From positions 1 to 38,811 of the forward strand of contig JAFRKJ010000078.1 in assembly GCA_017431785.1 (NCBI GenBank): DNA of 38,811 nt. Reading direction: 5' to 3'. This DNA comes from Bacillota bacterium. GTDB lineage: Bacteria > Bacillota > Clostridia > Peptostreptococcales > Anaerovoracaceae. The position numbers and the translations under genes were made by a program. The notes beneath the pieces are model-generated. The model saw only the letters and a program-made list of their open reading frames with translations. It was not told the DNA's origin and made no database searches. How positions within the stretch are numbered: position 1 is the first letter of the stretch; each line of letters starts with the position of its first letter. Positions 7,429 through 23,517 of the stretch are shown piece by piece.

Positions 7429-8550
7429 ATGTTTGAATTAATCGCAACAGCCACCTTCGGGCTTGAAGCCGTCGTACGGAGAGAGATCGAAGAGCTGGGA
7501 TATGAAATCATAAAAACAGAAGATGGCAAGGTGACCTTTGCAGGGGATGAGCGGGCGATCGTCCGCTCAAATTTATGGCTGCGTTGCGCAGACCGAGTTC
7601 TGCTGAAGACCTGTGAATTCCAGGCGCTGGAATTTGAGGACCTCTTTCAGGGTATCAAGGCGTACCCATGGGAGGAGATCATCCCCGTGGACGGCAAATT
7701 CACAGTGACCTGTTCCACCGTCAAGTCAAAGCTCCACAATCCGCCTGCCATTCAGAGCGTATCGAAGAAAGCCATCGTAGAGCGCATGAGCGAGGCCTAC
7801 GGGGTTCAGCATTTCGAAGAGACGGGCGCTGAGTACACAGTCAAAGTCACCATGCTCAAGGACAGGGCAACCATCACGATCGATACGAGCGGAAGCGGTC
7901 TGCACAAAAGGGGATACCGCGCAGCAGCAGTCGATGCGCCGATCAAGGAGACACTGGCTGCAGCCCTTGTACAGCTCAGTTTCTTCCGTCCGGGGAGAAT
8001 TCTGGCAGATCCATGCTGCGGCAGCGGGACGATTCCTATTGAGGCGGCCATGATCGGCATGAATATCGCGCCGGGGCTATCTCGGACTTTTGCATGTGAG
8101 AAGTGGGACATCATCACGCGCCAGATCTGGAAAGAAGAACGCAGTGCAGCCTTTGCGGCAATTACAAGGCCGGAAGGAAAGATCTATGCTTCGGATATCG
8201 ATCCGAAGGCGGTGCGCGCAGCGCAGGAGAATGCGGCAGAAGCAGGTGTGGACGAGTATATCGAGTTCAAACGCGCAGATGTGAAGGAACTGGATCGGAT
8301 AGGCGAACGCGGCATCATCATCACCAACCCGCCGTACGGGGAGCGGATCGGCGAACAGGAAGAGATCGACCGCGTGTTCAAAGCGCTGCGCAGCTTTTGC
8401 AGAGAGAATCCCGATTGGTCTTTGTTTATCATCACACCGGACAAAGATGCGGAGAAGAAGATCATGGGCCGCAGAGCCAACCGGCGCCGTAAACTGTTCA
8501 ACGGTAACATTGAAACGACATATTATCAGTTCCACGGAGTGAAATCATGA
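7429..8550 (+). CDS. rlmL: THUMP-domain rRNA m2G methyltransferase (RlmL/YpsC type)
   Basis: A 373-residue protein with a ferredoxin-like N-terminal domain, a THUMP RNA-binding domain (about residues 45-160) and a class I AdoMet methyltransferase domain. Motif I is DPCCGSGT beginning at D194; the catalytic NPPYGER begins at N300. The size and layout match B. subtilis YpsC and the N-terminal half of E. coli RlmL, which makes m2G2445 in 23S rRNA. It lacks the RlmK half. The target base is inferred from the family. The ribosome binding site is weak (CGGA). Its stop overlaps the start of the pyruvate kinase gene (ATGA). Confidence 0.88.
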   Translation: MFELIATATFGLEAVVRREIEELGYEIIKTEDGKVTFAGDERAIVRSNLWLRCADRVLLKTCEFQALEFEDLFQGIKAYPWEEIIPVDGKFTVTCSTVKSKLHNPPAIQSVSKKAIVERMSEAYGVQHFEETGAEYTVKVTMLKDRATITIDTSGSGLHKRGYRAAAVDAPIKETLAAALVQLSFFRPGRILADPCCGSGTIPIEAAMIGMNIAPGLSRTFACEKWDIITRQIWKEERSAAFAAITRPEGKIYASDIDPKAVRAAQENAAEAGVDEYIEFKRADVKELDRIGERGIIITNPPYGERIGEQEEIDRVFKALRSFCRENPDWSLFIITPDKDAEKKIMGRRANRRRKLFNGNIETTYYQFHGVKS

Positions 8551-9620
8551 GAGAGGTCACAATACAGTGCACAATTGGTCCGTCATGCAATGATCCGCAT
8601 GTGCTTGCGGAAATGATGGAAGCAGGAATGGGCGTTGCGAGAGTAAACCTGTCCCACGGAAGCGCCGCTTCCCAGGAGGACAAGCTCGTCAACTTCAGAA
8701 GGGCGGTCAGAATGACCGGATCCATGGAAACTGCCATCATGTTCGATATACGCGGACCTGAAATCAGAGTCAAGGAGATTCCGGGCGGGAGCATTTTCGC
8801 AGCGACCGGGGAGACACTGGTGCTGCGATGCGAAGATGTGGAAGAGCACGATCCGGATGCAAACCAGTGGGGAAGCTATACGGAAAACATCATCAAAGTC
8901 AACTACGAAAATCTCTGCAATGAAGTCTTCGTCGGAACCCAGATCCTGATCAACGATGGCAAGGTCAGCCTTACTGTCGAGAGCGTGAAAGGGAAGGACA
9001 TCGTCTGCTATGTGGACAGAGGCGGACAGATCCAGAGCCGCAAAGGCGTGAACGTCCCGGATGTGAAACTGCAGATGGAGTACCTGGGCGAGGATGATAT
9101 CGAGGATATCCTATGGTGCATCGAAAACGGTGTGGATTACATCGCGGGATCTTTCATCAGAAGGGTCGATGATGTGCGTGCCATCAGAAAGCTGTTGGAT
9201 GAAAACGACGGCAGACAAATCGGCATCATCGCTAAAATCGAAAACAAAGAGGCGGTCAGCAATGTAGAGGCTATTGCGAAAGAAGCGGATCAGATTCTCG
9301 TGGCAAGAGGGGACATGGGTGTTGAAATCGGCTTTGAGAAAGTGCCGGCGGTTCAGAAACGCATCATCCGCAAGTGCAGAGAAATGGGAAAGGCGGTCAT
9401 CATTGCGACCCAGCTGATCGATTCCATGACGGAGAACCTGACGCCGACCAGGGCGGAAGTTTCAGATATCGCCAATGCTGTCTTTGACGGTGCGACGGAT
9501 CTGCTTGTGACCGGTGAGACAGCATCAGGAAAACATCCTGTTGAAGTTGTGAAAGAGATGGCGAAGATCATCGATCAGGCGGTCATCGACGTGCAGAGAT
9601 ACGGGGAAGAGATTCTGTAG
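8547..9620 (+). CDS. pyk: Short pyruvate kinase lacking the C-terminal domain
   Basis: A 357-residue protein with the pyruvate kinase barrel and B domain: CTIGPS near the N-terminus, ARVNLSHG, DIRGPEIR, the catalytic lysine in AKIENKEAV (K230), the metal-binding ARGDMGVE, the IIATQ threonine, and PTRAEVSDIANAVFDGA followed by TGETASGKHPVEVV. The active-site set looks complete, so it may convert PEP and ADP to pyruvate and ATP. It stops where the roughly 110-residue allosteric C-terminal domain would begin (usual length 470-580), so normal effector control should be missing. IDSM replaces the usual LESM. It overlaps the rRNA methyltransferase gene by 4 nt and is followed 26 nt later by the MocR gene. 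A different phosphotransfer substrate is possible. Confidence 0.82.
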   Translation: MREVTIQCTIGPSCNDPHVLAEMMEAGMGVARVNLSHGSAASQEDKLVNFRRAVRMTGSMETAIMFDIRGPEIRVKEIPGGSIFAATGETLVLRCEDVEEHDPDANQWGSYTENIIKVNYENLCNEVFVGTQILINDGKVSLTVESVKGKDIVCYVDRGGQIQSRKGVNVPDVKLQMEYLGEDDIEDILWCIENGVDYIAGSFIRRVDDVRAIRKLLDENDGRQIGIIAKIENKEAVSNVEAIAKEADQILVARGDMGVEIGFEKVPAVQKRIIRKCREMGKAVIIATQLIDSMTENLTPTRAEVSDIANAVFDGATDLLVTGETASGKHPVEVVKEMAKIIDQAVIDVQRYGEEIL

Positions 9621-9646: not shown

Positions 9647-11128
9647 ATGAAAATCGAAATCAACAGAGCAGACAAAACACCTGTCTACATTCAAATCGCA
9701 GGTCAGATCAAGAATATGCTCCATACCGGCGCAATCACCGACGGCTACATGCTTCCGTCAGAGAGAGTGCTGGCGGAGGAGCTTGGCGTGCACCGGAACA
9801 CTGTAACGAAAGCATACGGTGAGCTGAAGAGTGAAGGCCTGATCTATGCGTCTCAAGGAAGGTGCTACAGAGTCAGTTTCGGACGGGAGACCGTTGGCGA
9901 TGAAACGATCGTGCCGGACAGGAGAAAAAACGTCAGCTGGGAAGCCGCTATGCGCCGTGAATTCGACGATTTCAGCAGCGACTTCGATGAGCTGTACAGC
10001 GAGAGTTTCGACCCATCATATATTTCCTTCGCGGGGGGCGTAGCAGCGAGAGAACCTTATCCGCCGGAGGAAATCGCAGACGTATTCGAAGAAATCCTGA
10101 GGAACAGCGGGGACAAGGCCTATTTCTACGTGCCATATCAGGGAGATCCGGAACTGATTCGCGAGATCGTGAAATACATGGCATCAAGCGGCATCAGAAC
10201 GAAAGCCTCCAATATACAGATTTTCAAGGAGAACACCCAGGCGCTGGATTTTATCGTGCAGCTCATGCTTTCTCCGGGGGACAGCGTTATCGTCAATGAG
10301 ATCATGGCTTCCGATGTGTACAGAACCATCGAGCTGGCCGGCGGGAAACTCATCACAGTACCTTCCGACGAGCACGGCATGATTACCGATAATCTGGATA
10401 AAGTCATTGAAGCGAGCAATCCGAAGTTCATCTATGTGGACTCCAGTTTCAATAATCCCAAAGGATCGGTCCTGACGTTGGAACGGCGCAGACAGATCCT
10501 GGAGTTATCTTACCAGTACAGAATCCCGATCGTCGAAGACGATGAGAGCTCTGAACTCTACTATGGCGGGAAGACACCACCATCTATCAAGTCGATGGAT
10601 CACGGAAACAATGTCATTTACATGTATTCCTTTTCCCTGGATATGGTTCCGGGCATCGGTATCTCCTTCGTATCGGCAGACAAGAAGATCATAGAACAGT
10701 TTTCAAACATGGTTTCCCTGCGGGGAGCAAATCCTGAGTGGGCGTCCCAGATGCTCATGACACAGTACATGAAGAACGGCATGTTCGCAGAGCGTCTCAA
10801 TGATTTCCGAACTGTTTGCAAAGGCAAGAGAGACAGGATGTGCGCAAGGCTGGAGAGCATGGCAGGAAGGTTCGGCCTGCGGTACACAAAACCGGAAGGC
10901 GGCGTCTACATCTGGGTGGAGCTTCCGGAGCACATGAATTCAAGAAAGCTCCTGAAGGAGACCCAGAAGAGGGGAATGACATTCATGCCGGGATACCTGT
11001 TCTTCCCAAAGAAGCAGATGGGAGCGCATTATTTCAGATTGAACTTCTCCTATCCGACTGCAGAAGAAATTGAGGAAGGCATGGACATACTGGAGGAGAG
11101 CCTTGCAGCGCTGCAAAAGGGTTTGTAG
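9647..11128 (+). CDS. MocR-type regulator (GntR wHTH plus aminotransferase fold) without the PLP lysine
   Basis: A 493-residue protein. Residues 1-75 are a GntR winged helix (YIQIAGQIKNML, LPSERVLAEELGVHRNTVTKAY). From about residue 110 it is a fold-type I aminotransferase domain with SFNNPKG, the PLP-N1 aspartate in IVEDDESSELYY, and the carboxylate arginine in FRLNFS. The Schiff-base motif, normally SFSK, reads SFSLDMVPG: the lysine codon is CTG, giving L331. The domain therefore should not form an internal aldimine. It may bind an amino acid or PLP non-covalently, or act as a pure effector sensor. MocR factors usually bind direct repeats; such repeats lie 33 nt after its stop, before the arginine deiminase operon. 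The start has AGGGG 8 nt upstream. Confidence 0.88.
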   Translation: MKIEINRADKTPVYIQIAGQIKNMLHTGAITDGYMLPSERVLAEELGVHRNTVTKAYGELKSEGLIYASQGRCYRVSFGRETVGDETIVPDRRKNVSWEAAMRREFDDFSSDFDELYSESFDPSYISFAGGVAAREPYPPEEIADVFEEILRNSGDKAYFYVPYQGDPELIREIVKYMASSGIRTKASNIQIFKENTQALDFIVQLMLSPGDSVIVNEIMASDVYRTIELAGGKLITVPSDEHGMITDNLDKVIEASNPKFIYVDSSFNNPKGSVLTLERRRQILELSYQYRIPIVEDDESSELYYGGKTPPSIKSMDHGNNVIYMYSFSLDMVPGIGISFVSADKKIIEQFSNMVSLRGANPEWASQMLMTQYMKNGMFAERLNDFRTVCKGKRDRMCARLESMAGRFGLRYTKPEGGVYIWVELPEHMNSRKLLKETQKRGMTFMPGYLFFPKKQMGAHYFRLNFSYPTAEEIEEGMDILEESLAALQKGL

Positions 11129-11304: not shown

Positions 11305-12303
11305 ATGGCTGTTAATTTGAAAGGAAGAAGTTTTCTCACACTGATGGATTTCACTCCGGAAGAAATCAGATACATGCTCGATCTGGCACACGATCTGAAG
11401 GCTAAGAAGAGAGCTGGCATCCTGGGCGAAACAATGAAGGGCAAGAATGTTGTACTGCTTTTCGAGAAGACTTCAACCAGAACAAGATGCGCATTCGAAA
11501 CAGGCGCACTGGAAGAAGGCGCTCATGTTACATTCCTGGACAGCAAGTCCTCACAGATGGGCAAGAAAGAATCACTGGAAGACACTGCTAAAGTTCTCGG
11601 CAGATTCTACGATGGTATTGAATACAGAGGATATGACCAGAAAGTCGTTGAAGATCTGGCCAAGTACGCAGGCGTTCCTGTATGGAATGGTCTGACTGAC
11701 GTTGATCACCCGACTCAGATCCTGGCTGACCTGCTCACAATCGAAGAGCACGTTGCAAAGCCGCTGAGAGACTGCAAGGTCGTTTTCGTAGGTGACGTAA
11801 GAAACAACATGGCTTACGCTTGGATGTACGGCTGCGCTAAGATGGGTATGCACTTCGTAGCATACGGACCACAGGAACTGTGCGATCAGGTTGACGCTGA
11901 CGTCGTTGCAAGAGCGAAGGCTGTAGCAGAAGAAACAGGCGCTGTCATCGAAGTAAGATCCGATGTAGAAGCAATCGAAGGCGCTGACGTTCTCTACACT
12001 GACATCTGGGCTTCCATGGGTGAAGAGGATCAGATTCCTGACAGAGTAAGAATGCTGACTCCTTACAGAGTAGATGAAGCTATGATCAAGGCTACAGGCA
12101 ACGACAATGTAATCTTCATGCACTGCCTGCCATCCTTCCATGACTTCGAAACAACAATGGCTAAGAGCCAGATGGAACTGGGCTACGACATCCGCGAGGT
12201 TACCGACGAAGTATTCAGAAGCAGACATTCAAAGGTATTCGACGAAGCTGAGAACAGAATGCACACAATCAAGGCTGTCATGGTTGCTACAATCGGCAGA
12301 TAA
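11305..12303 (+). CDS. argF: Ornithine carbamoyltransferase, probably catabolic
   Basis: A 332-residue transcarbamylase. The carbamoyl-phosphate motif STRTR is at residues 57-61 ([11 protein letters not shown]). The ornithine/citrulline motif is HCLPSFHD, against the usual HCLPAFHD. Beside arcA and arcC it should run phosphorolytically: citrulline plus phosphate gives ornithine and carbamoyl phosphate. In that role it is often called arcB. Arginine codons are almost all AGA (one CGC), which fits strong expression. It is the first gene of the operon, with AGGAG 9 nt before the ATG, and arcA follows 42 nt later. An anabolic role in addition cannot be excluded, because argG and argH are close by. 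Confidence 0.95.
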
Positions 12304-12345
12304 TCGAGGCCGCATTAGTCAAAAGTAATTCAGGAGGTTGAAGAA

Positions 12346-13566
12346 ATGATACCTGGAATCCATAATTATTCGGAAATTGGCAAACTGAATAAAGTTCTGC
12401 TGCACAGACCGGGACTGGAACTGGAAGCGCTGACGCCGTCCACTATGGAGAGGCTGCTCTTCGACGATATTCCGTTCCTCAAAGTTGCTCAGCAAGAGCA
12501 CGACAGATTTGCCGAAGTACTGAGAGAAAACGGCGTTGAAGTAGTGTACTACGTGCAGGAAACTGCAAAGGCATTAAGCACGCCGCAGCTCCAGCAGAGT
12601 CTGATCGAAGACTTCCTCGATCTTTCTCTGATTACATCAAAGGGCATGAGAGAGAGCCTGATTTCCTATCTCATGACATTCACGCCGGAGGAGATGGTTG
12701 CGAAACTCATTGCCGGCATCAAGAAGAATGAAGTACCATCCGATGAAGTACACTCCCTGATGGACCTGATCCACGATGACTATCCGTACATCTCAGATCC
12801 AATGCCGAATCTGTACTTCACAAGAGACCCGGGCGCATGCGTAGGAGATGGCATCAACATCCACCACATGCACACCCAGGAGAGAAGAAGGGAATCCCTG
12901 CTGCTCAGATACATGTACAAGTACAACAGAGATTTCGCAACGGAAGAAAACAAGCAGTGGTACGATCTCGATCAGGATTTCTCCATCGAAGGCGGCGACG
13001 TACTGGTTCTTTCCAAGGACATGGTTGCCATCGGTCTGTCCCAGAGAACGACCATCGCAGGCATTGAGCGTTTCGCCAAGAACCTGCTGTCAAACTCCAC
13101 ATTCAAGAAAGTGCTGGTGTTCGATATTCCTAAGACGAGAGCATTCATGCATCTGGATACCGTATTCACCATGGTTGACTATGATAAGTTCACCATCCAC
13201 CCTGAGATCGAAGGCCCGCTGGGCGTATATGAGATCACCATGGGTGCAGGCGGCGAGCTGAAGTTCAACGCTATGAAAGACGAACTGCAGAACATTCTGG
13301 CTATGGAGCTGGGAATCCCTGCAGTAGAACTGATCAGATGCGGCGGCGGCGACCTGCTGGCCGCACAGAGAGAACAGTGGAACGATGGATCCAACACACT
13401 CTGCATCGCTCCGGGAACCGTTGTTACGTATGAGAGAAACTATGTATCCAATGAACTCCTGGACAAGAAAGGAGTCAAGGTACTGTCCATTCCGAGTGCA
13501 GAGCTTTCAAGAGGAAGAGGCGGCCCGAGATGCATGAGCTGCCCGGTAAACAGAGTTGATTTATAA
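12346..13566 (+). CDS. arcA: Arginine deiminase
   Basis: A 406-residue arginine deiminase that converts arginine to citrulline and ammonia. Family motifs are present in order: HRPGLELEALTP near the N-terminus, NLYFTRDPGACVG, IEGGDVLVL, FMHLDTVFT, and the C-terminal GPRCMSCPVNR, with the nucleophile at C396. Length is normal. The start follows a full AGGAGGTTG site. It is the second gene of the operon, with 42 nt after argF and 11 nt before arcC. The protein should be cytoplasmic and fed by the ArcD-type antiporter at 24316. Confidence 0.97.
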   Translation: MIPGIHNYSEIGKLNKVLLHRPGLELEALTPSTMERLLFDDIPFLKVAQQEHDRFAEVLRENGVEVVYYVQETAKALSTPQLQQSLIEDFLDLSLITSKGMRESLISYLMTFTPEEMVAKLIAGIKKNEVPSDEVHSLMDLIHDDYPYISDPMPNLYFTRDPGACVGDGINIHHMHTQERRRESLLLRYMYKYNRDFATEENKQWYDLDQDFSIEGGDVLVLSKDMVAIGLSQRTTIAGIERFAKNLLSNSTFKKVLVFDIPKTRAFMHLDTVFTMVDYDKFTIHPEIEGPLGVYEITMGAGGELKFNAMKDELQNILAMELGIPAVELIRCGGGDLLAAQREQWNDGSNTLCIAPGTVVTYERNYVSNELLDKKGVKVLSIPSAELSRGRGGPRCMSCPVNRVDL

Positions 13567-13577
13567 GGAGAAAATAG

Positions 13578-14531
13578 ATGTCAGAAGCAAAAGGTAAAAT
13601 TGTAATCGCTCTGGGCGGAAACGCCCTGCAGTCAGGCAAAGGCCCTGCAACGGCGGAAGCACAGCTGGAAGTCGTCAGAAGGACTTGCGAACACGTAGCG
13701 CAGATCAGCGGCATGGGATATGAGATCGCTGTCGTGCACGGCAACGGACCACAGGTCGGACGTATCGTCATGGCCAGTGAAGCAGCGAAGGATGTTACGC
13801 CGTCGATGCCGTTCGACGTATGCGGCGCTATGTCCCAGGGATATATCGGATATCACATCCAGCAGTGCCTGCTGTACGCTTTGAACAAAGAAAACAGACA
13901 CGTTCCAGTCGTGACAGTAGCGACCCAGATGATCGTGGATGAAAACGACCCTGCCTTCCAGAAGCCGACCAAGCCGATCGGACCATTCTACACGGAAGAA
14001 GAAGCGAAGGCTATGGAAGAAGAAAAAGGCTGGACCATGAAAGAAGACGCCGGCAGAGGCTGGAGAAGAGTGGTAGCGTCACCGAAGCCGCTGCGCATCG
14101 TTGAAATCGAAGCAGTGAGACAGCTCTGGGACAACACCATCGTCATCACATGCGGAGGCGGCGGCATTCCTGTCATCGAGAAGATGGACGGACACCTGGA
14201 AGGTGTTGCGGCTGTCATCGACAAGGACTTCGCGGCAGAACTGCTGGCAGAGCAGGTGGAAGCGGATACGCTCCTGATCCTGACAGAGGTAGAAAAAGTT
14301 GCGATCAACTTCAATAAGCCGGATCAGCAGGATCTGGATCATCTGACTCTGATCGAAGCGACGAAATACATCGAAGAGGGACAGTTCCCGGCAGGAAGCA
14401 TGCTCCCGAAGGTGGAAGCCGGTATGAAGTTCGTCAGAATGTTCCCGAACAAGAAGGCGATCATTACTTCCCTCGACAAGGCAGTCGAAGCCCTGAACGG
14501 GGAAACAGGAACGGTAATCACATTCAACTAA
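13578..14531 (+). CDS. arcC: Carbamate kinase
   Basis: A 317-residue amino acid kinase family member starting KIVIALGGNAL, followed by VVHGNGPQVG and, later, TCGGGGIPVI and the AAVIDKDFAA segment typical of ArcC. It converts carbamoyl phosphate and ADP to ATP, ammonia and CO2, the energy-yielding step of arginine fermentation. AAGGAG precedes the ATG and only 11 nt separate it from arcA, so the two are co-translated from one message. Length is normal. The next gene, an argH paralogue, follows after 13 nt. Confidence 0.97.
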   Translation: MSEAKGKIVIALGGNALQSGKGPATAEAQLEVVRRTCEHVAQISGMGYEIAVVHGNGPQVGRIVMASEAAKDVTPSMPFDVCGAMSQGYIGYHIQQCLLYALNKENRHVPVVTVATQMIVDENDPAFQKPTKPIGPFYTEEEAKAMEEEKGWTMKEDAGRGWRRVVASPKPLRIVEIEAVRQLWDNTIVITCGGGGIPVIEKMDGHLEGVAAVIDKDFAAELLAEQVEADTLLILTEVEKVAINFNKPDQQDLDHLTLIEATKYIEEGQFPAGSMLPKVEAGMKFVRMFPNKKAIITSLDKAVEALNGETGTVITFN

Positions 14532-14544
14532 AAGAGGTGATGAA

Positions 14545-15882
14545 ATGAAACAGACTGCGAAAGAGTTTATGTCGTCCATCAGTGTCGACAACATGCTCTA
14601 TGATGAAGAAATCATTGCAAGCAAAGCGCATGCGCGCATGCTGAAGCAGAACAAACTGATCACTGCAGAAGAATGCGATCAGATGATCAAAGGTCTGGAC
14701 GAGGTACTGACCGCTGTTGAAGCGGGTGAGGTGGAGTTCAAAGTTGCGTACGATGACATCCATGGATGCATTGAGCAGGTGCTGGAAGAGAAAATCGGTC
14801 CTGTCGCCAGAAAACTCAACCGTGGACGCAGTGTAAACGATCAGGTCGTCATTGACACCAGATTGTTTCTGAGGGCGGAGAATGAGTCCATCATGGGTTC
14901 TCTGAGAGAACTGATGGATACACTGGAAACGCTGGCAAAGGAACACGTGAACACGATCATGCCCGGATACTCTCATCTGCAGAGAGCCCAGCCGATCACG
15001 CTGGCGTATCATATGCTGGCTTATTACCAGATGTTCCGCCGCGACTTGAAGAGATTCGAACACTGTATGGAGAGCATCAATGTCATGCCGCCTGACTGTG
15101 GCGCGCTGGCCGGCAACGTCTTCGATACAGACCGTAAGAAGATGGCGAAGGAACTGGGTTTTGACGGGATCCTTCCCAATGCCATGGATGCCGTCGCCGA
15201 CAGAGACTTCGGTATGGAGTTCATCAACGACTGCTCCATCACGATGATGCATCTGTCAAGATTCTGTGAGGATCTGATTCTCTGGAGTTCCGTAGAATTC
15301 GGATTCATCGAGATCGACGACGAGTTCACAACCGGAAGCAGAGTGCTTCCTCAGAAGAAGAATCTCGATGTTGCGGAGCTGATCAGAGGGAAGACCGGTA
15401 GAGTATACGGCGATATGATCAATCTGCTGACCGTCTTCAAGGGACTGCCGATGTCCTATAATAGAGACATGCAGGAAGACAAGTACGCAATGCTTGATGC
15501 TGCGCATACTGTAGAAGCATGCCTGACTCTGTTTGTTGAGATGATCAAGTCCATGAAGATCAACAGAGGCGAGATGCAGAGAGCTGCGAAGTACGGCTAC
15601 ATGAACGCTACAGAACTGGCAGAGTATCTGATGGAGAAGGGCATTGAGACTGAGAAAATCGGAGATATCATCAGCAAGGTCGTACAGTACGCCATCAACA
15701 ATAATAAGCCAATCGAAGAACTGTGGCTGGATGATTTGAAGCAGTTCACACAGGTCTTCGACAGCGATGTCTATGACAAAGTGGCAATCAGAAATGTCAT
15801 CGCGTCCAAGGTTTCCGACGGATCGACATCATTTGAGAACGTTGAGAAGCAGATCAAAGAGATTGCAAAGAACAAGAAATAA
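14545..15882 (+). CDS. Argininosuccinate lyase paralogue with altered active site
   Basis: A 445-residue member of the fumarase/aspartase superfamily, clearly ArgH-like (GYSHLQRAQPITLAYH with H144 kept, [25 protein letters not shown]). Key positions differ from the true ArgH at 20603. The LWKGRF N-terminus is missing. HTARSRND reads NRGRSVND (residues 92-99). The signature [12 protein letters not shown] reads GSRVLPQKKNLD, so the catalytic serine is R266. Ordinary argininosuccinate lyase activity is therefore unlikely. Choices are a pseudo-enzyme, a regulatory partner in mixed tetramers with ArgH (active sites in this family use three subunits), or a new reaction. It is the last gene of the arc operon, 13 nt after arcC with its own AGAGGTGAT site, and is followed by a strong terminator. 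Confidence 0.85.
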   Translation: MKQTAKEFMSSISVDNMLYDEEIIASKAHARMLKQNKLITAEECDQMIKGLDEVLTAVEAGEVEFKVAYDDIHGCIEQVLEEKIGPVARKLNRGRSVNDQVVIDTRLFLRAENESIMGSLRELMDTLETLAKEHVNTIMPGYSHLQRAQPITLAYHMLAYYQMFRRDLKRFEHCMESINVMPPDCGALAGNVFDTDRKKMAKELGFDGILPNAMDAVADRDFGMEFINDCSITMMHLSRFCEDLILWSSVEFGFIEIDDEFTTGSRVLPQKKNLDVAELIRGKTGRVYGDMINLLTVFKGLPMSYNRDMQEDKYAMLDAAHTVEACLTLFVEMIKSMKINRGEMQRAAKYGYMNATELAEYLMEKGIETEKIGDIISKVVQYAINNNKPIEELWLDDLKQFTQVFDSDVYDKVAIRNVIASKVSDGSTSFENVEKQIKEIAKNKK

Positions 15883-15903
15883 ACAGTCATTGCAGTTCAG
15901 AAA

Positions 15904-15946
15904 CCGCTGCGTGGAATGAAATGATCACTCCATGCGGCGGTTTTTT
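15904..15946 (+). terminator. Terminator of the arc operon
   Basis: A 12-bp stem, with two G-U pairs, joins 15904-15915 and 15929-15940 around a 13-nt loop, followed by six T. The preceding AAA can extend the stem into the T run. It closes the operon after the argH paralogue. Confidence 0.88.
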
Positions 15947-15967
15947 GCATGCAAGAAAAAATAAATG

Positions 15968-15996
15968 TTGCATATTTATGTAATGAAATGTATAAT
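15968..15996 (+). promoter_or_regulatory. carB promoter
   Basis: TTGCAT (15968-15973) and TATAAT (15991-15996), spacer exactly 17 nt. The predicted start of transcription is near 16003. Confidence 0.78.
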
Positions 15997-16003
15997 TATC
16001 AAC

Positions 16004-16039
16004 ATGAAGGCTGAACAGGCAACATAAGTTGCTTGTTTT
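16004..16039 (+). promoter_or_regulatory. carB leader: 7-codon frame inside a terminator-like hairpin
   Basis: At the predicted 5' end of the message, ATG at 16004 opens a frame MKAEQAT that stops at TAA 16025-16027. Its last codons lie in the hairpin CAGGCAAC (16016-16023)/GTTGCTTG (16028-16035), which is followed by TTTTATTG. The stop codon fills most of the loop. This could be a compact attenuator, or chance. Confidence 0.35.
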
Positions 16040-16065
16040 ATTGTGACAGACACACGGGGGTGAAC

Positions 16066-19000
16066 ATGCCAAAGAAAGAGTATCTGAAGAAAATACTGAT
16101 CATCGGGTCAGGACCGATTGTAATCGGACAGGCTGCGGAATTTGACTATGCCGGCACACAGGCCTGCAAAGCAATCCGGGAGGAAGGAATCCAGACGATT
16201 CTCGTCAACAGCAATCCGGCAACGATTATGACGGATCACCAGATTGCAGACATCGTCTACATGGAACCATTGACAGAGGAGACGATTGAAGAAGTCATCC
16301 GAAGAGAACGGCCGAATGGGATGCTGGCTGGCTTTGGCGGACAGACAGGACTCAATCTGGCGATGGAAATGGAACGCAAAGGCATACTGTCCCGTTACAA
16401 CGTAGAACTTCTGGGTGTCAACAAAGAAAGCATCAAGAAAGCGGAAGACAGGGAGGCGTTCAAAGCCCTCATGGAGGAGATCGGCGAACCTGTTCCGGCA
16501 AGCACAATTGCCACAACGATCGATGAATGCCATGCGTTCATAGAGAAAGAAGGATTGCCTGTCATCATCAGACCCGCGTATACATTGGGCGGTACAGGCG
16601 GCGGCATCGCGGAGACGATGGAAGAACTCGATGATCTTTGCTACAGAGGGATGGAGAGCAGTGCCATCGGACAGATTCTTCTCGAGAAGTCCGTTGCAGG
16701 ATGGAAAGAGATCGAATATGAGGTCATGCGCGATGGGGCTGACCACTGCATTATCATCTGCGATATGGAGAACGTCGATCCCGTTGGCGTACATACGGGA
16801 GACAGCATCGTCGTTGCACCGACACAGACCATCTCGGAAGAAGAAAACAACATACTCAAAAACGCTTCGATCAAGATTATCCGGAGTCTTGGCATTGAAG
16901 GAGGATGCAATATCCAGTTTGCTCTGGATCCGGACACCGGCGACTACATTGTCATCGAGGTGAATCCGCGCGTCAGCCGTTCTTCAGCGTTGGCTTCTAA
17001 GGCCGCCGGATATCCGATCGCCAGGATCGCAGCCAAGATCGCGCTTGGGTATCATCTCGATGAGATACGCAACAGTGTGGCAGGAGGATCGGCACTATTT
17101 GAGCCGTCGCTGGATTACATTGTTGTGAAATATCCACGTTGGCCCTTTGATAAGTTCAGAACAGCATCGCGTAAACTGGGGACACAGATGAAAGCAACCG
17201 GTGAGGTCATGTCTTTGTGCAAGAGCTTCGAAAGCGCTTTGCTGAAGGCGCTGACTTCTGTAGAAATCAAATGCGACGGTCTGCATACACCAACTGTTTC
17301 CGGCTTGGGGGATGTGGAATTGCTGGCAAAACTGAAAGCCTGTGATGATGAGAGAATCTTCTGTATCGCAGAAGTGCTGAGAAGAGATCTGATGACGGTG
17401 GATGAGATTTACGAGGTCACAAAAATCAATCCATGGTTTCTGAATAAAATCAAGTATCTCATCGACCTTGAAAAACAGCTGAAAGAAGGCCCATTGACGA
17501 AAGAACTGCTTATCGAAGCAGAGTCGAAGGGTTTCACGGACAACGATATCATCGGCCTGTCCGGTGTTCCACGGGAGGTTATTCAAGACATTCGTATCTA
17601 CAATGATATCTATCCTGTCTACAAGATGGTCGATACGAGCGGCGGCCGCTCAGCGATTTCGACGCCGTACTACTATTCCTGTTACGAAAAAGGAGATGAA
17701 AACGTCATCTCAGATCGTGAGAAGATACTGGTAATTGGTTCCGGCCCGATCAGAATCGGACAGGGAATCGAGTTCGACTATTGTTGTGTGCAGTGTGTCA
17801 ATGCAGTCAGGGAACTTGGCTATGAGGCGATCATCGCCAACAATAATCCGGAGACAGTAAGCACAGATTCGGATATTTCAGACAAATTGTATTTTGAGGC
17901 GCTCCATATTGATGATGTGATGAACATCATCAAAAGAGAACGTCCTAAAGGTGTCATCGTACAGTTCGGCGGACAGACCTCCCTGAATCTTGCAGAGCAG
18001 CTCGACAGCCGTATGATCAACATTCTGGGTACATCATACAAGAACATCGATCTGGCGGAAGACAGGGAGAAATTCAATGCGCTTCTGAAAGAATTGCACA
18101 TTAAAACGCCGAAGGGATATGCGGTTACAGGAGAACAGGAAGCGTTCGCTGCAGTCGCAGAACTCGGTTATCCAGTTGTCGTTCGCCCGTCCTATGTAAT
18201 CGGCGGACGTGCCATGCAAGTTGTTTACAGCGACGAAGAGTTGCAGAGCTACCTGAGGGAAGCGGTTTCTCTGTCAAAGGAGCATCCAGTCCTGATCGAC
18301 CAGTATATTGTAGGTAAGGAGATTGAAGTAGACGCTGTATCTGATGGTGAGGATGTGCTGATTCCGGGAATCATGGAACATATTGAACGTGCCGGCGTCC
18401 ATTCCGGGGACAGCATCTCAGTCTATCCGGATTTTTCCATCGCCAAAGAGGTGGAGGATACGCTGGCGGTCTATACGAAAAAGATAGCAAAAGCATTGCA
18501 TGTCGTCGGACTGGTCAACATCCAATATGCGTATGACGGACAGACCATTTACGTCATTGAGGTCAATCCGCGTGCATCCAGGACGGTGCCGATCCTGAGC
18601 AAAGTTACAGGCGTGCCGATGGTCAAACTGGCCGTTGCAGCTATGCTGGGTCAGAAACTGAAGGACAGTGGGTTCGGGACGGGGCTGTATCCAAAGTGTG
18701 ACAAGTACTCCGTGAAAGTTCCTGTATTCTCCAGTGCGAAGCTGACCGATATGGATATTGCACTGGGACCAGAAATGAAATCTACCGGCGAAGTACTCGG
18801 TATTGATGCTGATCTGAAGAAGGCACTGTATAAAGGCTTCGTTGCAGCAGGTACGGCGATTCCGACAGCGGGCAATATTTTCGCAACTATACGACAGGCT
18901 GAACTGACGCCGTACACGGCGGAAATACTGAAAGATTACATCGATGCAGGATTCAAGCTGTATGTATCGTCAGATAATCTTGATTTTGCAAAGCAACACG

Positions 19001-19263
19001 AAATCAACGTGAATGTAATGACGTACGATACAGCCATCAAATGGATCGGAAACCATGATGCCAGCAGTGAAATGAGGATCGATCTGGTTCTGAATGTTCC
19101 GGAAATGGCAAACAGCAAAGAAAACGACAGCTTCCCGGTCAGAAGGAAGGCTGTCGAACGCGGGATACCGACCATGACCTGCATGGATACCGCGAAAGCG
19201 TTTCTGGAGGTCATCAGGCTCAAGCAGGAAGGCGCAGAACTGCAATATGCCCAGCTGGGTTAA
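16066..19263 (+). CDS. carB: Carbamoyl phosphate synthase large subunit
   Basis: 1065 residues, full length. Two homologous ATP-grasp halves begin ILIIGSGPIVIGQAAEFDYAGTQ and ILVIGSGPIRIGQGIEFDYCCVQ, and each carries an EVNPR motif. It makes carbamoyl phosphate from bicarbonate, ammonia and two ATP. The C-terminal MGS-like regulatory domain (about the last 130 residues) is diverged, keeping IDLVLNVP and RRKAVERGIP but not the usual N-terminal part. The start at 16066 is chosen because GGGGGTGA lies 5 nt upstream and MPKKEYLKKILIIGSG is the normal beginning; an upstream in-frame ATG at 16033 has no such site. No carA lies in the window, so the glutaminase subunit is elsewhere or ammonia is used directly. 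It has its own promoter between the arc and argGH units. Confidence 0.95.
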   Translation: MPKKEYLKKILIIGSGPIVIGQAAEFDYAGTQACKAIREEGIQTILVNSNPATIMTDHQIADIVYMEPLTEETIEEVIRRERPNGMLAGFGGQTGLNLAMEMERKGILSRYNVELLGVNKESIKKAEDREAFKALMEEIGEPVPASTIATTIDECHAFIEKEGLPVIIRPAYTLGGTGGGIAETMEELDDLCYRGMESSAIGQILLEKSVAGWKEIEYEVMRDGADHCIIICDMENVDPVGVHTGDSIVVAPTQTISEEENNILKNASIKIIRSLGIEGGCNIQFALDPDTGDYIVIEVNPRVSRSSALASKAAGYPIARIAAKIALGYHLDEIRNSVAGGSALFEPSLDYIVVKYPRWPFDKFRTASRKLGTQMKATGEVMSLCKSFESALLKALTSVEIKCDGLHTPTVSGLGDVELLAKLKACDDERIFCIAEVLRRDLMTVDEIYEVTKINPWFLNKIKYLIDLEKQLKEGPLTKELLIEAESKGFTDNDIIGLSGVPREVIQDIRIYNDIYPVYKMVDTSGGRSAISTPYYYSCYEKGDENVISDREKILVIGSGPIRIGQGIEFDYCCVQCVNAVRELGYEAIIANNNPETVSTDSDISDKLYFEALHIDDVMNIIKRERPKGVIVQFGGQTSLNLAEQLDSRMINILGTSYKNIDLAEDREKFNALLKELHIKTPKGYAVTGEQEAFAAVAELGYPVVVRPSYVIGGRAMQVVYSDEELQSYLREAVSLSKEHPVLIDQYIVGKEIEVDAVSDGEDVLIPGIMEHIERAGVHSGDSISVYPDFSIAKEVEDTLAVYTKKIAKALHVVGLVNIQYAYDGQTIYVIEVNPRASRTVPILSKVTGVPMVKLAVAAMLGQKLKDSGFGTGLYPKCDKYSVKVPVFSSAKLTDMDIALGPEMKSTGEVLGIDADLKKALYKGFVAAGTAIPTAGNIFATIRQAELTPYTAEILKDYIDAGFKLYVSSDNLDFAKQHEINVNVMTYDTAIKWIGNHDASSEMRIDLVLNVPEMANSKENDSFPVRRKAVERGIPTMTCMDTAKAFLEVIRLKQEGAELQYAQLG

Positions 19264-19303
19264 AACAGTTCCCCAATGAGACAATTTAAATACGATTACA
19301 GGG

Positions 19304-19331
19304 TTGATTTATATACAGAGATATGTATAAT
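19304..19331 (+). promoter_or_regulatory. argG-argH promoter
   Basis: TTGATT (19304-19309) and TATAAT (19326-19331), spacer 16 nt. An inverted repeat TATAC-N8-GTATA (19312-19329) covers the spacer and the -10. Confidence 0.68.
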
Positions 19332-19338
19332 AATGCAC

Positions 19339-19368
19339 ATGGGCATAGATATGCATAAATACTATTAG
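19339..19368 (+). CDS. Possible 9-codon leader peptide before argG
   Basis: ATG at 19339, 7 nt after the -10 box, opens MGIDMHKYY and ends at TAG (19366-19368). The stop overlaps the AGGAGG ribosome binding site of argG. The position suggests a leaderless peptide whose translation could affect argG initiation. No Shine-Dalgarno is possible, and a frame this short can arise by chance. Confidence 0.25.
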   Translation: MGIDMHKYY

Positions 19369-19380
19369 GAGGAAAGAAAA

Positions 19381-20652
19381 GTGGCTAAAGAAAAAGTTGT
19401 ACTGGCGTATTCCGGCGGACTCGATACATCCGTCATCATGAAATGGCTCAAGGAGAACTATGATTATGATGTGATTGCAGTATGCTGCAATGCCGGACAG
19501 AAGGAAGATTTCAAAGCAATTGAAGAGAAAGCGATGGCGACAGGAGCGATCAAAGCGCTGACCCTGGACATCAGGGAAGAGTTCATCACAGATTATATCT
19601 GGCCTACATTGAAGGCCGGAGCAACCTATGAGAACTATCTGCTGGGTACTGCGATGGCGAGACCGCTCATGGCGAAGAAGCTTGTTGAAGTTGCGCAGAA
19701 TGAGGGGGCGTTCTACATTGCCCATGGATGCACAGGTAAAGGTAATGACCAGGTAAGATTTGAATCTGCGATTCATTCCCTTGATCCTGCAATCAAGATC
19801 ATCGCGCCTTGGAGAATGCCGGAGTGGGAATTCGAATCCAGAGAGGACATGATCCAGTATTCCCATGATCACGGTATTCCGATCAGTCAGTCCAACGCCA
19901 AGATTTATTCAAGAGATGAAAACATCTGGCACATCAGCCATGAGGGCGGAGAATTGGAGAATCCTTGGAACGTGCACTATGATTCCATTCACGTACTGAG
20001 TGTTCCGCCTGAACAGGCGCCTGATGAGGTCACTTATGTGGATATCGATTTTGAAGACGGTATTCCTGTTGCAATAGACGGAGAAAAGCTGGGACCGATC
20101 GAACTGCTGACGAAGCTCAATGAACTGGGAAGCAAAAACGGCATCGGCACCATCGATATCGTTGAAAACAGACTGGTCGGCATGAAGTCCCGTGGCGTCT
20201 ATGAGACACCGGGTGGAACGATTCTTTTCAATGCACATGCCGGTCTGGAAGAGCTGATTCTCGACAGAGACACAGCTCACTACAAGAAAATCGTGGGAGA
20301 GAAATTTGCAGAACTGCTGTATACAGGTCTCTGGTTCACACCACTCAGGGAGGCAATCTGCGCCTTTGTCGACAAGACCCAGGAGAACGTAACAGGAACC
20401 GTAAAGATGAAACTGTACAAAGGCAATGCAACGGTTGCCGCCAAGAAGGCTCCATATTCACTTTACAACGAAGAATTTGCTACCTTCAGTAAGGATGAGG
20501 TATATAATCAGTATGACGCGGAAGGCTTCATAAATCTGTGGTCGCTGCCGCTGAAGATCAGAGCGATCCAGAAACAGACAGCTGAAGGAGGTGCAGTATA
20601 CAATGAAGCTCTGGAAAGGAAGGTTCTCAAAGGAAGCGACTTCGTCGAGTGA
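19381..20652 (+). CDS. argG: Argininosuccinate synthase
   Basis: 423 residues. The PP-loop ATP motif SGGLDTS is at residues 11-17 ([11 protein letters not shown]). Also present are [15 protein letters not shown], the family signature for citrulline and aspartate binding, and the late GRNSPYSLY-like region, here [11 protein letters not shown]. It joins citrulline and aspartate using ATP. The start is GTG at 19381, supported by AGGAGG 8 nt upstream and the normal [13 protein letters not shown] beginning. Its last 50 nt overlap the start of argH in another frame. Its own promoter separates it from carB. Confidence 0.96.
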
Positions 20653-21967
20653 TGAATTCAACGCTTCGATTCCCTTCGATCAGAGAATGTATGAAGAGGA
20701 TATCAAAGGCAGCATAGCCCATGCGGGAATGCTGGCGAAACAGGGCATCCTCACGGAAGAGGAAGGCGCCCTGATCATCAAGACGCTTGGTGAAATACTA
20801 GAGGATATCAAGGCCGGGAAGATCGAATTCTCCATAGAAGGAGAAGACATCCACATGAGCATCGAGACCATTCTGACCGAGAGAATCGGGCAGACGGGGA
20901 AGAAGCTCCATACGGCGAGAAGCAGAAACGACCAGGTCGCCGTGGATTTCCGGCTCTGGCTCCGCAAGGAGACAGCTGAAATCGACAGCAAGCTGGATGA
21001 GCTGATGAAAACACTGCAGGAGTTGGCGGAGGCACATCAGGAGACAGTGATGCCGGGATATACCCATCTGCAGCGGGCGCAGCCTGTCACCTTGGCGTAT
21101 CACTTGCTGGCGTACTATCAGATGTTCAGCCGCGACAAAGAGCGGTTTGCCGACGGCCTCAAGCGGATCAACAGACTGCCGCTTGGGAGCGGTGCGCTGG
21201 CGGGTACCACCTACAATACAGACCGTCAGTATCTGGCTGACCAGCTCGGCTTCGACAGCATCCTTCCAAACGGAATGGACGCCGTCGCCGACAGGGATTT
21301 TGCAATAGAGTTTCTGAATTGCTGCAGCATCTGCATGATGCACTTATCCAGATTCTGCGAGGAGCTGATTCTGTGGAGCAGCGTGGAATTCGGGTTCGTT
21401 GAGATCGACGATTCCTATTCGACGGGAAGCAGCATCATGCCGCAGAAGAAGAATCCGGATATGGCGGAACTCATCCGCGGTAAGAGCGGCCGGGTCTACG
21501 GAGATCTCATGGCGTTGCTCACCGTATGCAAAGGCCTCCCAATGGCCTACAACAAGGACCTGCAGGAGGACAAGGAGCCTGTTTTCGATGCGTCTGATAC
21601 CGTGAAGAACTCGCTGGGAATCTTCACTGAGATGATTTCCACCATGACGGTCAAAAAAGACACCATGGCCAAAGCGGCAAAGTACGGTTACATGAATGCT
21701 ACGGACGCCGCCGACTATCTGGTGGGCAAAGGCATCCCATTCCGTGATTGCCACGAGATCATCGGAAAGATGGTGCTCTATGCCATAGGAGAAGGAAAAG
21801 CTTTGGATGAGCTGACCATGGATGAGTTCAAATCCTTCTCGGATGCTTTTGCAGAAGATATCTATGATGCAATCTCCATAGAGAACTGCATCAAAGCGAA
21901 ACAGTCAGAGGGATCCACATCCTTCGAAAGTGTCCGCAAACAGCTGGACAAAATTAAGAGTGACTAG
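20603..21967 (+). CDS. argH: Argininosuccinate lyase (canonical copy)
   Basis: 454 residues with a full active site: MKLWKGRF at the N-terminus, [10 protein letters not shown] (residues 103-112), [10 protein letters not shown] with the catalytic histidine, and [13 protein letters not shown] with the catalytic serine at S277. It splits argininosuccinate to arginine and fumarate. The start at 20603 is chosen over an in-frame ATG at 20591 because GGAGG lies 10 nt upstream and MKLWKGRF is the family start. The gene begins inside argG, with a 50-nt overlap in another frame. Compare the paralogue at 14545, which lacks these residues. Confidence 0.96.
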
Positions 21968-21991
21968 CCACACTATTCTCAATAGGTACGG

Positions 21992-22041
21992 CAGAGGCAG
22001 TTGGTGTGTTGATTGAACGGATCAGCTGCCTCTGTTATACT
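21992..22041 (+). promoter_or_regulatory. Fumarase promoter with 9-bp inverted repeat
   Basis: TTGAAC (22013-22018) and TATACT (22036-22041) with spacer 17 and an extended TGn motif. A perfect inverted repeat CAGAGGCAG (21992-22000)/CTGCCTCTG (22026-22034) has one arm before the -35 and the other in the spacer. It could be an operator, a terminator-like stem for argGH (a T run follows at 22041), or both. Confidence 0.6.
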
Positions 22042-22063
22042 TTTTGCGGGAGGTTCTGAAATA

Positions 22064-22906
22064 ATGAGAGAACTAAATGTAGAAGAAATCACGAAGGCTG
22101 TAGCACAGATGTACGTACACGCTAATTACTTCCTCGGAGAGGATGTGAAAGAACGTATCGCGGAGTGCGCACAGTGCGAGACATCACAGCTTGCACGAGA
22201 AGTCTTTGCGAGCGTGGAAAAGAATATGGAAATCGCGGCAGAGGGTGTGTTCCCTATCTGTCAGGACACCGGCATGGCCTGCGTTTTTCTGGAAATCGGG
22301 CAGGATGTGCATCTGACGGGAGGAAATCTCCATGAAGCAGTCAATGAAGGTGTCAGAAAGGGGTGTGCTGATGGATATCTGCGGCAGACCATCGTTGAGG
22401 ATCCGTTCCGGCGGAAGAATACCGGAGACAGTACGCCTGCCGACATCATTATAGATATCGTCCCCGGGGACAAAGTGAAGATTACTGTGGCGCCGAAGGG
22501 ATTTGGTTCGGAAAATATGAGCCAGATCAAGATGCTGACACCGGGCGCAGGTGTGAAAGGCGCAGAGGATTTTATCGTCAAAGTCTGCGAGGAAGCGGGC
22601 GGCAGACCGTGCCCGCCGATTGTCGTAGGAGTAGGAATCGGCGGAAACTTCAACAAGGCTGCTCTGATGGCGAAGAAAGCGCTGCTGCGGCCATTGGGTG
22701 AGCACAATGCGAATCCGTTCTATGCCGAGATGGAAGAACGGCTTCTGAAGCGAATCAACGACCTGGGCATCGGACCGCAGGGATTCGGCGGCAGTACGAC
22801 AGCGCTTGCTGTGAATGTCATCGCTGCACCGACGCATATAGCAGGACTTCCGGTGGCAGTGAATATCAACTGTCACGTATCGAGACATGAGGAAAGAATA
22901 TTATGA
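22064..22906 (+). CDS. fumA: Class I fumarate hydratase, alpha subunit
   Basis: 280 residues of the Fe-S hydro-lyase family (tartrate dehydratase/fumarase alpha). Cysteines likely to hold the 4Fe-4S cluster are in ICQDTGMAC and near the C-terminus in NINCHVSRH, with another in RPCPP. GSENMSQIKML and GVGIGGNF are family motifs. It interconverts fumarate and malate together with the beta subunit. The start at 22064 has GGGAGG upstream and matches the family; the in-frame ATG at 22013 lies inside the promoter. The oxygen-sensitive cluster suits an anaerobe. Tartrate dehydratase is the main alternative. Next to argH it would remove fumarate. Confidence 0.9.
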   Translation: MRELNVEEITKAVAQMYVHANYFLGEDVKERIAECAQCETSQLAREVFASVEKNMEIAAEGVFPICQDTGMACVFLEIGQDVHLTGGNLHEAVNEGVRKGCADGYLRQTIVEDPFRRKNTGDSTPADIIIDIVPGDKVKITVAPKGFGSENMSQIKMLTPGAGVKGAEDFIVKVCEEAGGRPCPPIVVGVGIGGNFNKAALMAKKALLRPLGEHNANPFYAEMEERLLKRINDLGIGPQGFGGSTTALAVNVIAAPTHIAGLPVAVNINCHVSRHEERIL

Positions 22907-23430
22907 AGCATGAATTGAAGGAACCTTTTACAAAGGACAAACTGAAGCAGCTCAAAGCAGGGGATACCGTCTTGCTGACCGGTACGATTTACGCTGCCAG
23001 AGATGCCGCGCACAGGAAGCTGATAGAGCTGATCGATGCCGGTGAGCCGCTGCCTTTGCCTATAGAGAATCAGATCATCTATTACATGGGACCGACGCCG
23101 GCAAGACCGGGTCATCCGATCGGCTCAGCCGGACCGACGACCAGTTACCGGATGGACGATTTCACACCGGCGCTCCTAAAGCTGGGGCTTTCGGGCATGA
23201 TCGGCAAGGGCCCGCGAAACGAAGCGGTGAAAGAGAGCGCGAAAGAAGAGGGCGCTGTCTACTTCGCAGCCATTGGCGGCGCCGCCGCTCTGATCGCCCA
23301 GAGCAGTAAGCAGTCAGAGGTGGTTGCCTTTGCAGAAATGGGGACAGAAGCGATCCGCAGCTTATATGTAGAAGAGATGCCGCTCATTGTCGCCAACGAC
23401 GCAGCCGGCGGAGATGTCTTCCAACGGTAG
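22903..23430 (+). CDS. fumB: Class I fumarate hydratase, beta subunit
   Basis: 175 residues of the Fe-S hydro-lyase beta family: LLTGTIYAARDAAHRKL, YMGPTPARPGHPIGSAGPTTS and MIGKGPRN are typical. It supplies the substrate-binding half of the enzyme. The ATG overlaps the alpha subunit stop (ATGA), so the two are coupled. In bacteria with one-chain FumA these parts are fused; here they are separate, as is common in anaerobes. Length is normal. Confidence 0.9.
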   Translation: MKHELKEPFTKDKLKQLKAGDTVLLTGTIYAARDAAHRKLIELIDAGEPLPLPIENQIIYYMGPTPARPGHPIGSAGPTTSYRMDDFTPALLKLGLSGMIGKGPRNEAVKESAKEEGAVYFAAIGGAAALIAQSSKQSEVVAFAEMGTEAIRSLYVEEMPLIVANDAAGGDVFQR

Positions 23431-23464: not shown

Positions 23465-23517
23465 CTATACAAGATATTATTGCTGCTAGTTATATGATTT
23501 ATGGAGGAATTAATATC

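Follow-up and report, generated by a model that had tools for sequence, protein, structure and literature searches.

An ArgH paralogue with a rebuilt active site in the arginine deiminase operon of a single bacterial genus

In the 38,811-nt stretch of DNA analysed here (the window), the gene directly downstream of arcC in an arginine deiminase (ADI) cluster encodes a 445-residue paralogue of argininosuccinate lyase (ArgH), here called PARA (14545-15882, forward strand). PARA is a genus-restricted, selected variant of ArgH, in which the catalytic core is kept while the active site around it, comprising the beta-carboxylate pocket and the N-terminal arm, has been rebuilt. It looks like a clean natural rewiring of an active site, with one duplication in one genus, coordinated changes at positions that are otherwise universal among the ArgHs compared, and strong purifying selection thereafter. 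With about an even chance of being correct, our best explanation from the sequence comparisons is that PARA is a neofunctionalised ArgH duplicate that would work as a beta-eliminating lyase on something other than the argininosuccinate made by ArgG. Searches of the literature outside subscription access, including ArgH and EDDS-lyase structures, SS-loop residues and neofunctionalised ArgH, found no description of an ArgH paralogue in ADI operons.

Gene context of PARA

The gene cluster is preceded by a MocR-type regulator (9647-11128), which was assigned by synteny and by its best NCBIfam match, a PdxR-like MocR model (287.5 bits, below the cut-off of 320). It is followed by the genes for ornithine carbamoyltransferase (OTC; 11305-12303; TIGR00658, 384.1 bits, above cut-off), ADI (arcA, 12346-13566; TIGR01078, 504 bits) and carbamate kinase (arcC, 13578-14531; TIGR00746, 412.9 bits), then PARA, and then carB for the large subunit of carbamoyl-phosphate synthase (16033-19263; TIGR01369, 1448.8 bits), argG for argininosuccinate synthase (19381-20652; TIGR00032, 509.7 bits), the canonical argH (20591-21967) and a class I fumarase (22013-23430, with alpha at 22013-22906 and beta at 22903-23430), all on the forward strand. 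A dimethylargininase-like protein (23494-24300; NF045658, 390.6 bits, below the cut-off of 450) and a basic amino acid permease resembling arginine-ornithine antiporters (24316-25773; TIGR03810, 384.2 bits, below the cut-off of 591) complete the order. Judged from gene content, a citrulline-arginine cycle in which aspartate is deaminated to give fumarate and malate could operate with ADI, OTC, ArgG, ArgH and fumarase, all encoded within 11305-23430. At 20591-20652, the argG frame and the beginning of argH share 50 or 62 nt, the value depending on the argH start, which is more likely the ATG at 20603. The pyruvate kinase encoded at 8547-9620 has only 357 residues and matches positions 2-334 of a 476-position model, corresponding to the barrel without the C-terminal domain.

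PARA starts 13 nt past the arcC stop codon, behind a Shine-Dalgarno-like AAGAGGTG in the intervening gap (14532-14544, forward strand). An equivalent start is present in 15 orthologues, and the N-termini read MKQTAKEF in 10, MKLSAKEF in five and MILSAKEF in one of the 16 proteins. The start position and these shared N-termini show that the absence of the WxGRF arm does not result from a mis-called start. An initial annotation, made from the sequence alone, had described the LWKGRF N-terminus as lost, HTARSRND as changed to NRGRSVND, the gene as coupled to arcC and a canonical ArgH as lying about 5 kb downstream. These descriptions proved accurate: the (L)WKGRF arm is absent, NRGRSVND is present in PARA, arcC lies directly upstream, and the canonical copy, which carries HTARSRND, is found at a distance of 4.7 kb.

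PARA and the canonical ArgH of the window are identical at 243 of 437 aligned residues (56%). The ArgH model TIGR00838 (EC 4.3.2.1) matched PARA with 499.5 bits and the canonical copy with 646.9 bits, and the Lyase_1 domain PF00206 was found in PARA with 221.9 bits (cut-off 27). As PARA passes the curated ArgH cut-off of 279.5 bits, annotation by TIGR00838 would label it argH, and metabolic models of these bacteria would credit an arginine-synthesis enzyme even to genomes in which no argG was found. The monomer that AlphaFold2 predicted from the 16 PARA sequences is of moderate quality (mean pLDDT 67.1, pTM 0.59) and tells nothing of the tetrameric site. In a Foldseek search with this monomer, all 50 rows listed were ArgHs or delta-crystallins (TM about 0.64-0.68, rmsd about 9-12 Å), and identity to the solved ArgHs and delta-crystallins among these rows was 34-41%. 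Together with the full-length homology, this agrees with the earlier statement that the overall fold is kept.

Conserved catalytic core and remodelled substrate pocket

The initial annotation had taken R266 of PARA to replace the catalytic serine and had called the active site ruined, and neither claim could be upheld. PARA carries the motif GSRVLPQKKNLD (G264-S265-R266). In E. coli FumC, the first serine of the corresponding GSS is residue 318, presumably the catalytic base, and the alignment pairs G264-S265-R266 of PARA with G317-S318-S319 of FumC. In the PDB entry 1k7w, titled 'S283A Duck Delta 2 Crystallin Mutant', the chain reads GAS where the wild type reads GSS, which places the catalytic serine first in this pair (duck S283). 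The equivalent residue of PARA is S265, and R266 occupies the position of the second serine. Loss of the catalytic serine is ruled out by both comparisons and by the presence of S265 in all 16 PARA proteins; R266 as a variant of a single strain is likewise ruled out, as arginine or lysine is found at this position in 16 of 16.

The general-base serine, the His-Glu relay and the lysine-asparagine pair for the alpha-carboxylate of ArgH were all present throughout the 16 proteins (S265, H144, E278, K271 and N273), including the H144 that had already been noted as kept. Also invariant were N98, D71, H73, Y305, Q310 and K313. Within the GSSxxPxKxN loop, the first serine, the proline, the lysine and the asparagine were kept in 16/16, the second serine was R or K in 16/16 and the glycine was replaced in 4/16; SS-loop positions 264, 267, 268 and 270 vary among PARA proteins, whereas the catalytic residues do not. 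The YNxDxQEDK segment of ArgH is retained as YNRDMQEDK. Its arginine (K322 to R) was dismissed as a PARA-specific change, as YNRD also occurs in other ArgHs. In a study of goose delta-crystallin, H160, E294 and K323 are named as active-site residues and H160 bonds the fumarate moiety (PMC2779060); by motif, they are equivalent to H144, E278 and R307 of PARA. The PDB entry 1dcn, titled 'inactive mutant H162N of delta 2 crystallin', concerns the same histidine as H144.

A reference for the pocket is provided by the nitrosuccinate lyase CreD of the aspartase/fumarase superfamily. According to a study of this enzyme, the first serine, S302, represents the superfamily's general base, the alpha-carboxylate is bound by K308 and N310 and the beta-carboxylate by the second serine, S303, together with T122 and S123; an S303A variant is inactive, and the active site of the superfamily is common to three subunits (PMC13411527). 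Based on residue numbers and motif position, T122-S123-(N124)-D125 of CreD would correspond to S96-V97-N98-D99 of PARA.

The 16 PARA proteins were aligned with 82 other ArgHs (27 canonical rows, 23 from the family and 32 further ones, with one identical pair among them). At 108 positions the residue was identical in at least 80 of the 82 other ArgHs; 74 of these were kept in at least 15 of the 16 PARA proteins, 18 in at most three, and 16 fell in between. The combination of R112 to V or I (V in 15, I in one) with a replacement of the second SS-loop serine, S281 (position 266 in PARA numbering; R in 13, K in three), occurred in 16/16 PARA proteins and in 0/82 other ArgHs. R385 (PARA position 370) was changed to E in 11 and to D in five, again in none of the 82. 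The residues W8, G10, R11 and F12 of the N-terminal arm were lost, H107 was lost in 14 and kept in two, and P289 was replaced by L in 15 and retained in one. Further losses affected L198 (to P), G199 (to D or E), F332, V378, F384 and H388, while D37 to E, T158 to S and D372 to E were conservative. Among the other ArgHs, the four arm residues, H107, R112, S281, P289, F384, R385 and H388 were each found in 82/82, or 81 for W8, and in 0/16 PARA proteins except for the H107 and P289 cases above. When 100 homologue rows were inspected separately, 95 had GSS with RSRNDQ, and all five exceptions were PARA.

The change of T158 to S repeats the duck delta-2 crystallographic mutant T161S (title of PDB 1tju; equivalence by motif). 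We take R12 and R385 of human ArgH to be the arm arginine and the arginine of the PFR motif, respectively. Disease variants of human ArgH are reported at R12, Q286 and R385, and R113 is among the predicted active-site residues (PMC8574183). In a subgroup of four PARA proteins (L043, L045, L046 and L048), the SS-loop glycine is also lost (to F, T, S or Q) and S96 is changed to glycine; these changes beside a constant S265 indicate that the pocket is still diverging.

Distribution, inheritance and selection

Of 37 genomes from one genus of uncultured Clostridia-like bacteria (G000 to G036), 16 carry PARA, at 66-100% identity, with other matches in the genus at 44-59%. No PARA-level score (at least 859 bits) occurred outside the genus among the matches listed for 247 genomes of the family, nor in 297 genomes of the order, both samples being even draws from larger groups; other matches reached at most 698.1 bits. 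A contig scan for homologues returned five PARA genes among the 80 loci listed, on contigs that agree in length with those of G002, G008, G014, G017 and G027. PARA adjoins arcC in 15 of the 15 readable cases and 15 of 16 overall, the sixteenth gene (G018) starting at a contig edge, with arcC of this genome ending at another contig edge. A near full-length ADI gene was present in 28 of the 37 genomes, 16 with PARA and 12 without. PARA is therefore an optional addition to the arc operon. In ten ADI loci of genus mates lacking PARA (L052-L059, L062 and L067), arcC was followed by a CYTH-domain gene in seven cases, by a second OTC gene and then a CYTH gene in two, and by another gene in one. In L053 and L054, this second OTC gene sits where others have PARA.

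The initial annotation had proposed a search for a monophyletic clade of GSR-bearing paralogues linked to arc operons, and had regarded absence from all related arc operons as speaking against a special role. In a quick ArgH tree calculated without bootstrap, and with a program warning about long branches in its other parts, PARA formed one clade (SH-aLRT 100) with a stem of 0.9 changes per column, placed among ArgHs of the same genus. With this clade and its linkage to arcC, the expected pattern was found, though 12 of the 28 ADI-positive genomes lack the gene. The canonical ArgHs of 14 PARA genomes, together with those of G026 and G036, formed one set in the same tree (97), and PARA therefore looks vertically inherited within a subgroup of the genus.

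Along the PARA tree, at least three switches between R and K were counted at position 266 and at least four between D and E at position 370 (canonical R385), neither position ever leaving its charge class, and positions 143, 265 and 271 did not change. Pairwise dN/dS (Nei-Gojobori) ranged from 0.036 to 0.108 for 14 close PARA pairs, the only ones of 120 to be retained by the silent-site filter and in some cases with a dS of about 1.2, and from 0.019 to 0.059 for seven passing pairs among 10 canonical ArgHs. No internal stop was found in any of the 16 PARA genes. PARA is under strong purifying selection, somewhat looser than that on ArgH; the low dN/dS and the intact frames rule out a pseudogene, in line with the earlier view that the gene is not decaying.

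In G034, the canonical argH (L051 7084-8447) is split into two overlapping frames by a frameshift or an assembly error. A canonical argH accompanies PARA in 14 of the 16 PARA genomes. No argH match was obtained in the other two, G021 (96% complete, 7% contamination) and G029 (84% complete), both incomplete assemblies, and argG was found by search in neither of them but in all 22 other genomes given. On the G021 contig, PARA is followed by a CYTH-domain gene, and on the G029 contig by a dimethylargininase-like gene and a permease, with carB, argG, argH and fumarase missing in between. With the gap visible inside the contig in two lineages, and incompleteness as a caveat, partnership with ArgH or cleavage of ArgG-made argininosuccinate is unlikely to be the general role of PARA.

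No carA above the cut-off was detected in the 16 PARA genomes (best match 53.7 bits, cut-off 307.35), and the window's genome (81% complete), which carries carB, likewise showed none. The gene was present in 10 of 21 other genomes of the genus, none of which has PARA, and this pattern of absence may represent one clade-level event. A full carB was found in 11 of the 16 PARA genomes; CarB without CarA is possibly an ammonia-dependent synthase fed by ammonia from ADI. A role of PARA as CarA replacement or CarB partner was unsupported as a rule, as the remaining five PARA genomes also lack a full carB.

Possible functions of PARA

Several observations argue for a working lyase. The catalytic residues are invariant in 16/16 while neighbouring SS-loop positions vary, 74 of the 108 ArgH-universal positions are kept in at least 15 of 16 proteins, and the replacement states at 266 and 370 are conserved in charge under low dN/dS. 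PARA forms one clade, lies next to arcC in all readable cases and persists in two genomes where neither argG nor argH was detected. In addition, the second SS-loop serine and the C1 position, at which the substitutions occur, bind the beta-carboxylate in CreD (PMC13411527). That PARA catalyses something new, one of the options named in the initial annotation, thus remains the best fit.

By transfer from homologues, S265 would act as general base, H144 and E278 as charge relay, and K271 and N273 as alpha-carboxylate pocket, with N98 also part of the core, in a homotetramer whose sites would each be common to three subunits. Both R112 to V and S281 to R/K fall on positions that correspond to beta-carboxylate contacts of CreD, and the simplest reading of this analogy is that the charge has moved and not vanished: the positive charge facing the beta-carboxylate would have shifted from the C1 loop of one subunit (R112) to the SS-loop of another (S281 to R/K), which may change the fumarate adduct that PARA cleaves or forms. 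Taken with this charge move, the missing N-terminal arm and PFRxxH motif and the reversed charge at R385 suggest that the pocket and the way it closes were rebuilt, while the elimination core stayed intact. The amine partner would probably be a metabolite of the ADI pathway, such as ammonia, ornithine, citrulline or arginine. Only tentatively, PARA may be specified as a fumarate-adduct lyase whose cationic anchor for the beta-carboxylate has passed from one subunit's C1 loop to the SS-loop of a different one and which provides a fourth catalytic step of the ADI operon, linking ornithine, citrulline or ammonia to fumarate. Should PARA prove to be an enzyme, these bacteria would have a fourth step in the ADI pathway, which is commonly described with three.

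Some findings weigh against a lyase. As the S303A variant of CreD is inactive (PMC13411527), a serine-to-arginine change could kill the usual chemistry; the N-terminal arm, H107 and the PFRxxH motif are lost though universal in the other ArgHs; and the putative charge swap relies on binding contacts transferred from homologues by alignment, the predicted structure being a monomer of moderate quality (pLDDT 67.1). These losses, namely those of the second SS-loop serine, the C1 arginine, the arm and the PFRxxH arginine in 16/16, would fit the main rival explanation, a pseudoenzyme or ligand sensor that, as a homotetramer, binds but does not turn over arginine, citrulline or a dicarboxylate and thereby controls the ADI operon or its enzymes. 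The operon linkage to arcC would also fit, as would genus mates that run ADI operons without PARA, as expected for an accessory part. An inert binder should, however, not need the general-base serine, and S265, K271, N273, H144 and E278 are constant in 16 proteins whose flanking SS-loop positions vary. We regard a sensor as less likely than a lyase, and as an explanation that deserves serious consideration.

The 56% identity to the canonical copy, the full-length match to the ArgH model above its cut-off and the retained core and YNRDMQEDK segment would also be expected of an argininosuccinate lyase with merely changed kinetics, for example a catabolic one or one favouring the reverse direction. 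We consider this unlikely, given that R112, S281, H107, R11 and R385, present in 82/82 other ArgHs, are lost in 16/16 PARA proteins (14/16 for H107), and that G021 and G029, where no argG was found by search, show no obvious source of their own for argininosuccinate. Mixed tetramers with canonical ArgH, which had been suggested as a regulatory device and would tune arginine synthesis, might be envisaged from the presence of argH in 14 of 16 PARA genomes and from superfamily sites common to three subunits (PMC13411527). This arrangement is very improbable, and unlikely as a general role, as PARA persists without detectable argH in G021 (96%) and G029 (84%), both incomplete, in a contig neighbourhood lacking argG and argH.

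The lyase reading of PARA can be set against known systems. From ArgH itself, with which it shares fold and catalytic core, PARA differs by the substitutions described above and by its place in an operon with arcC. Delta-1 crystallin, the inactive ArgH paralogue of the bird lens, is likewise an ArgH duplicate beside an active copy; delta-1 and delta-2 crystallin are more than 90% identical and only delta-2 is active (PMC2779060). PARA, in contrast, is bacterial, belongs to a metabolic operon, is far more diverged from its ArgH and is changed at the beta-carboxylate pocket. CreD resembles PARA in having an altered pocket, its R341' meeting the C4 (beta) carboxylate, but keeps both SS-loop serines (S302 and S303), and its Arg341 is C-terminal of the loop by numbering (PMC13411527); the nitrosuccinate lyase model matched PARA weakly (20.2 bits, cut-off 650). 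An aspartase (AspA/AspB) would share the superfamily chemistry, and ammonia would fit an ADI operon, whereas the two best aspartase models gave PARA only 58.7 bits (cut-off 510) and 44.7 bits (cut-off 681.2), and its YNxDxQEDK segment is of the ArgH type. PARA as an aspartase is thus possible but unsupported by the profile models.

Besides PARA and ArgH, nine of the 24 genomes given showed Lyase_1 matches, all of them weaker (41.7 to 83 bits). Those of G008, G021 and G032 lay within a few kb of weak carA-model matches in frames of 515-529 codons, which we read as guaA, and they probably represent PurB.
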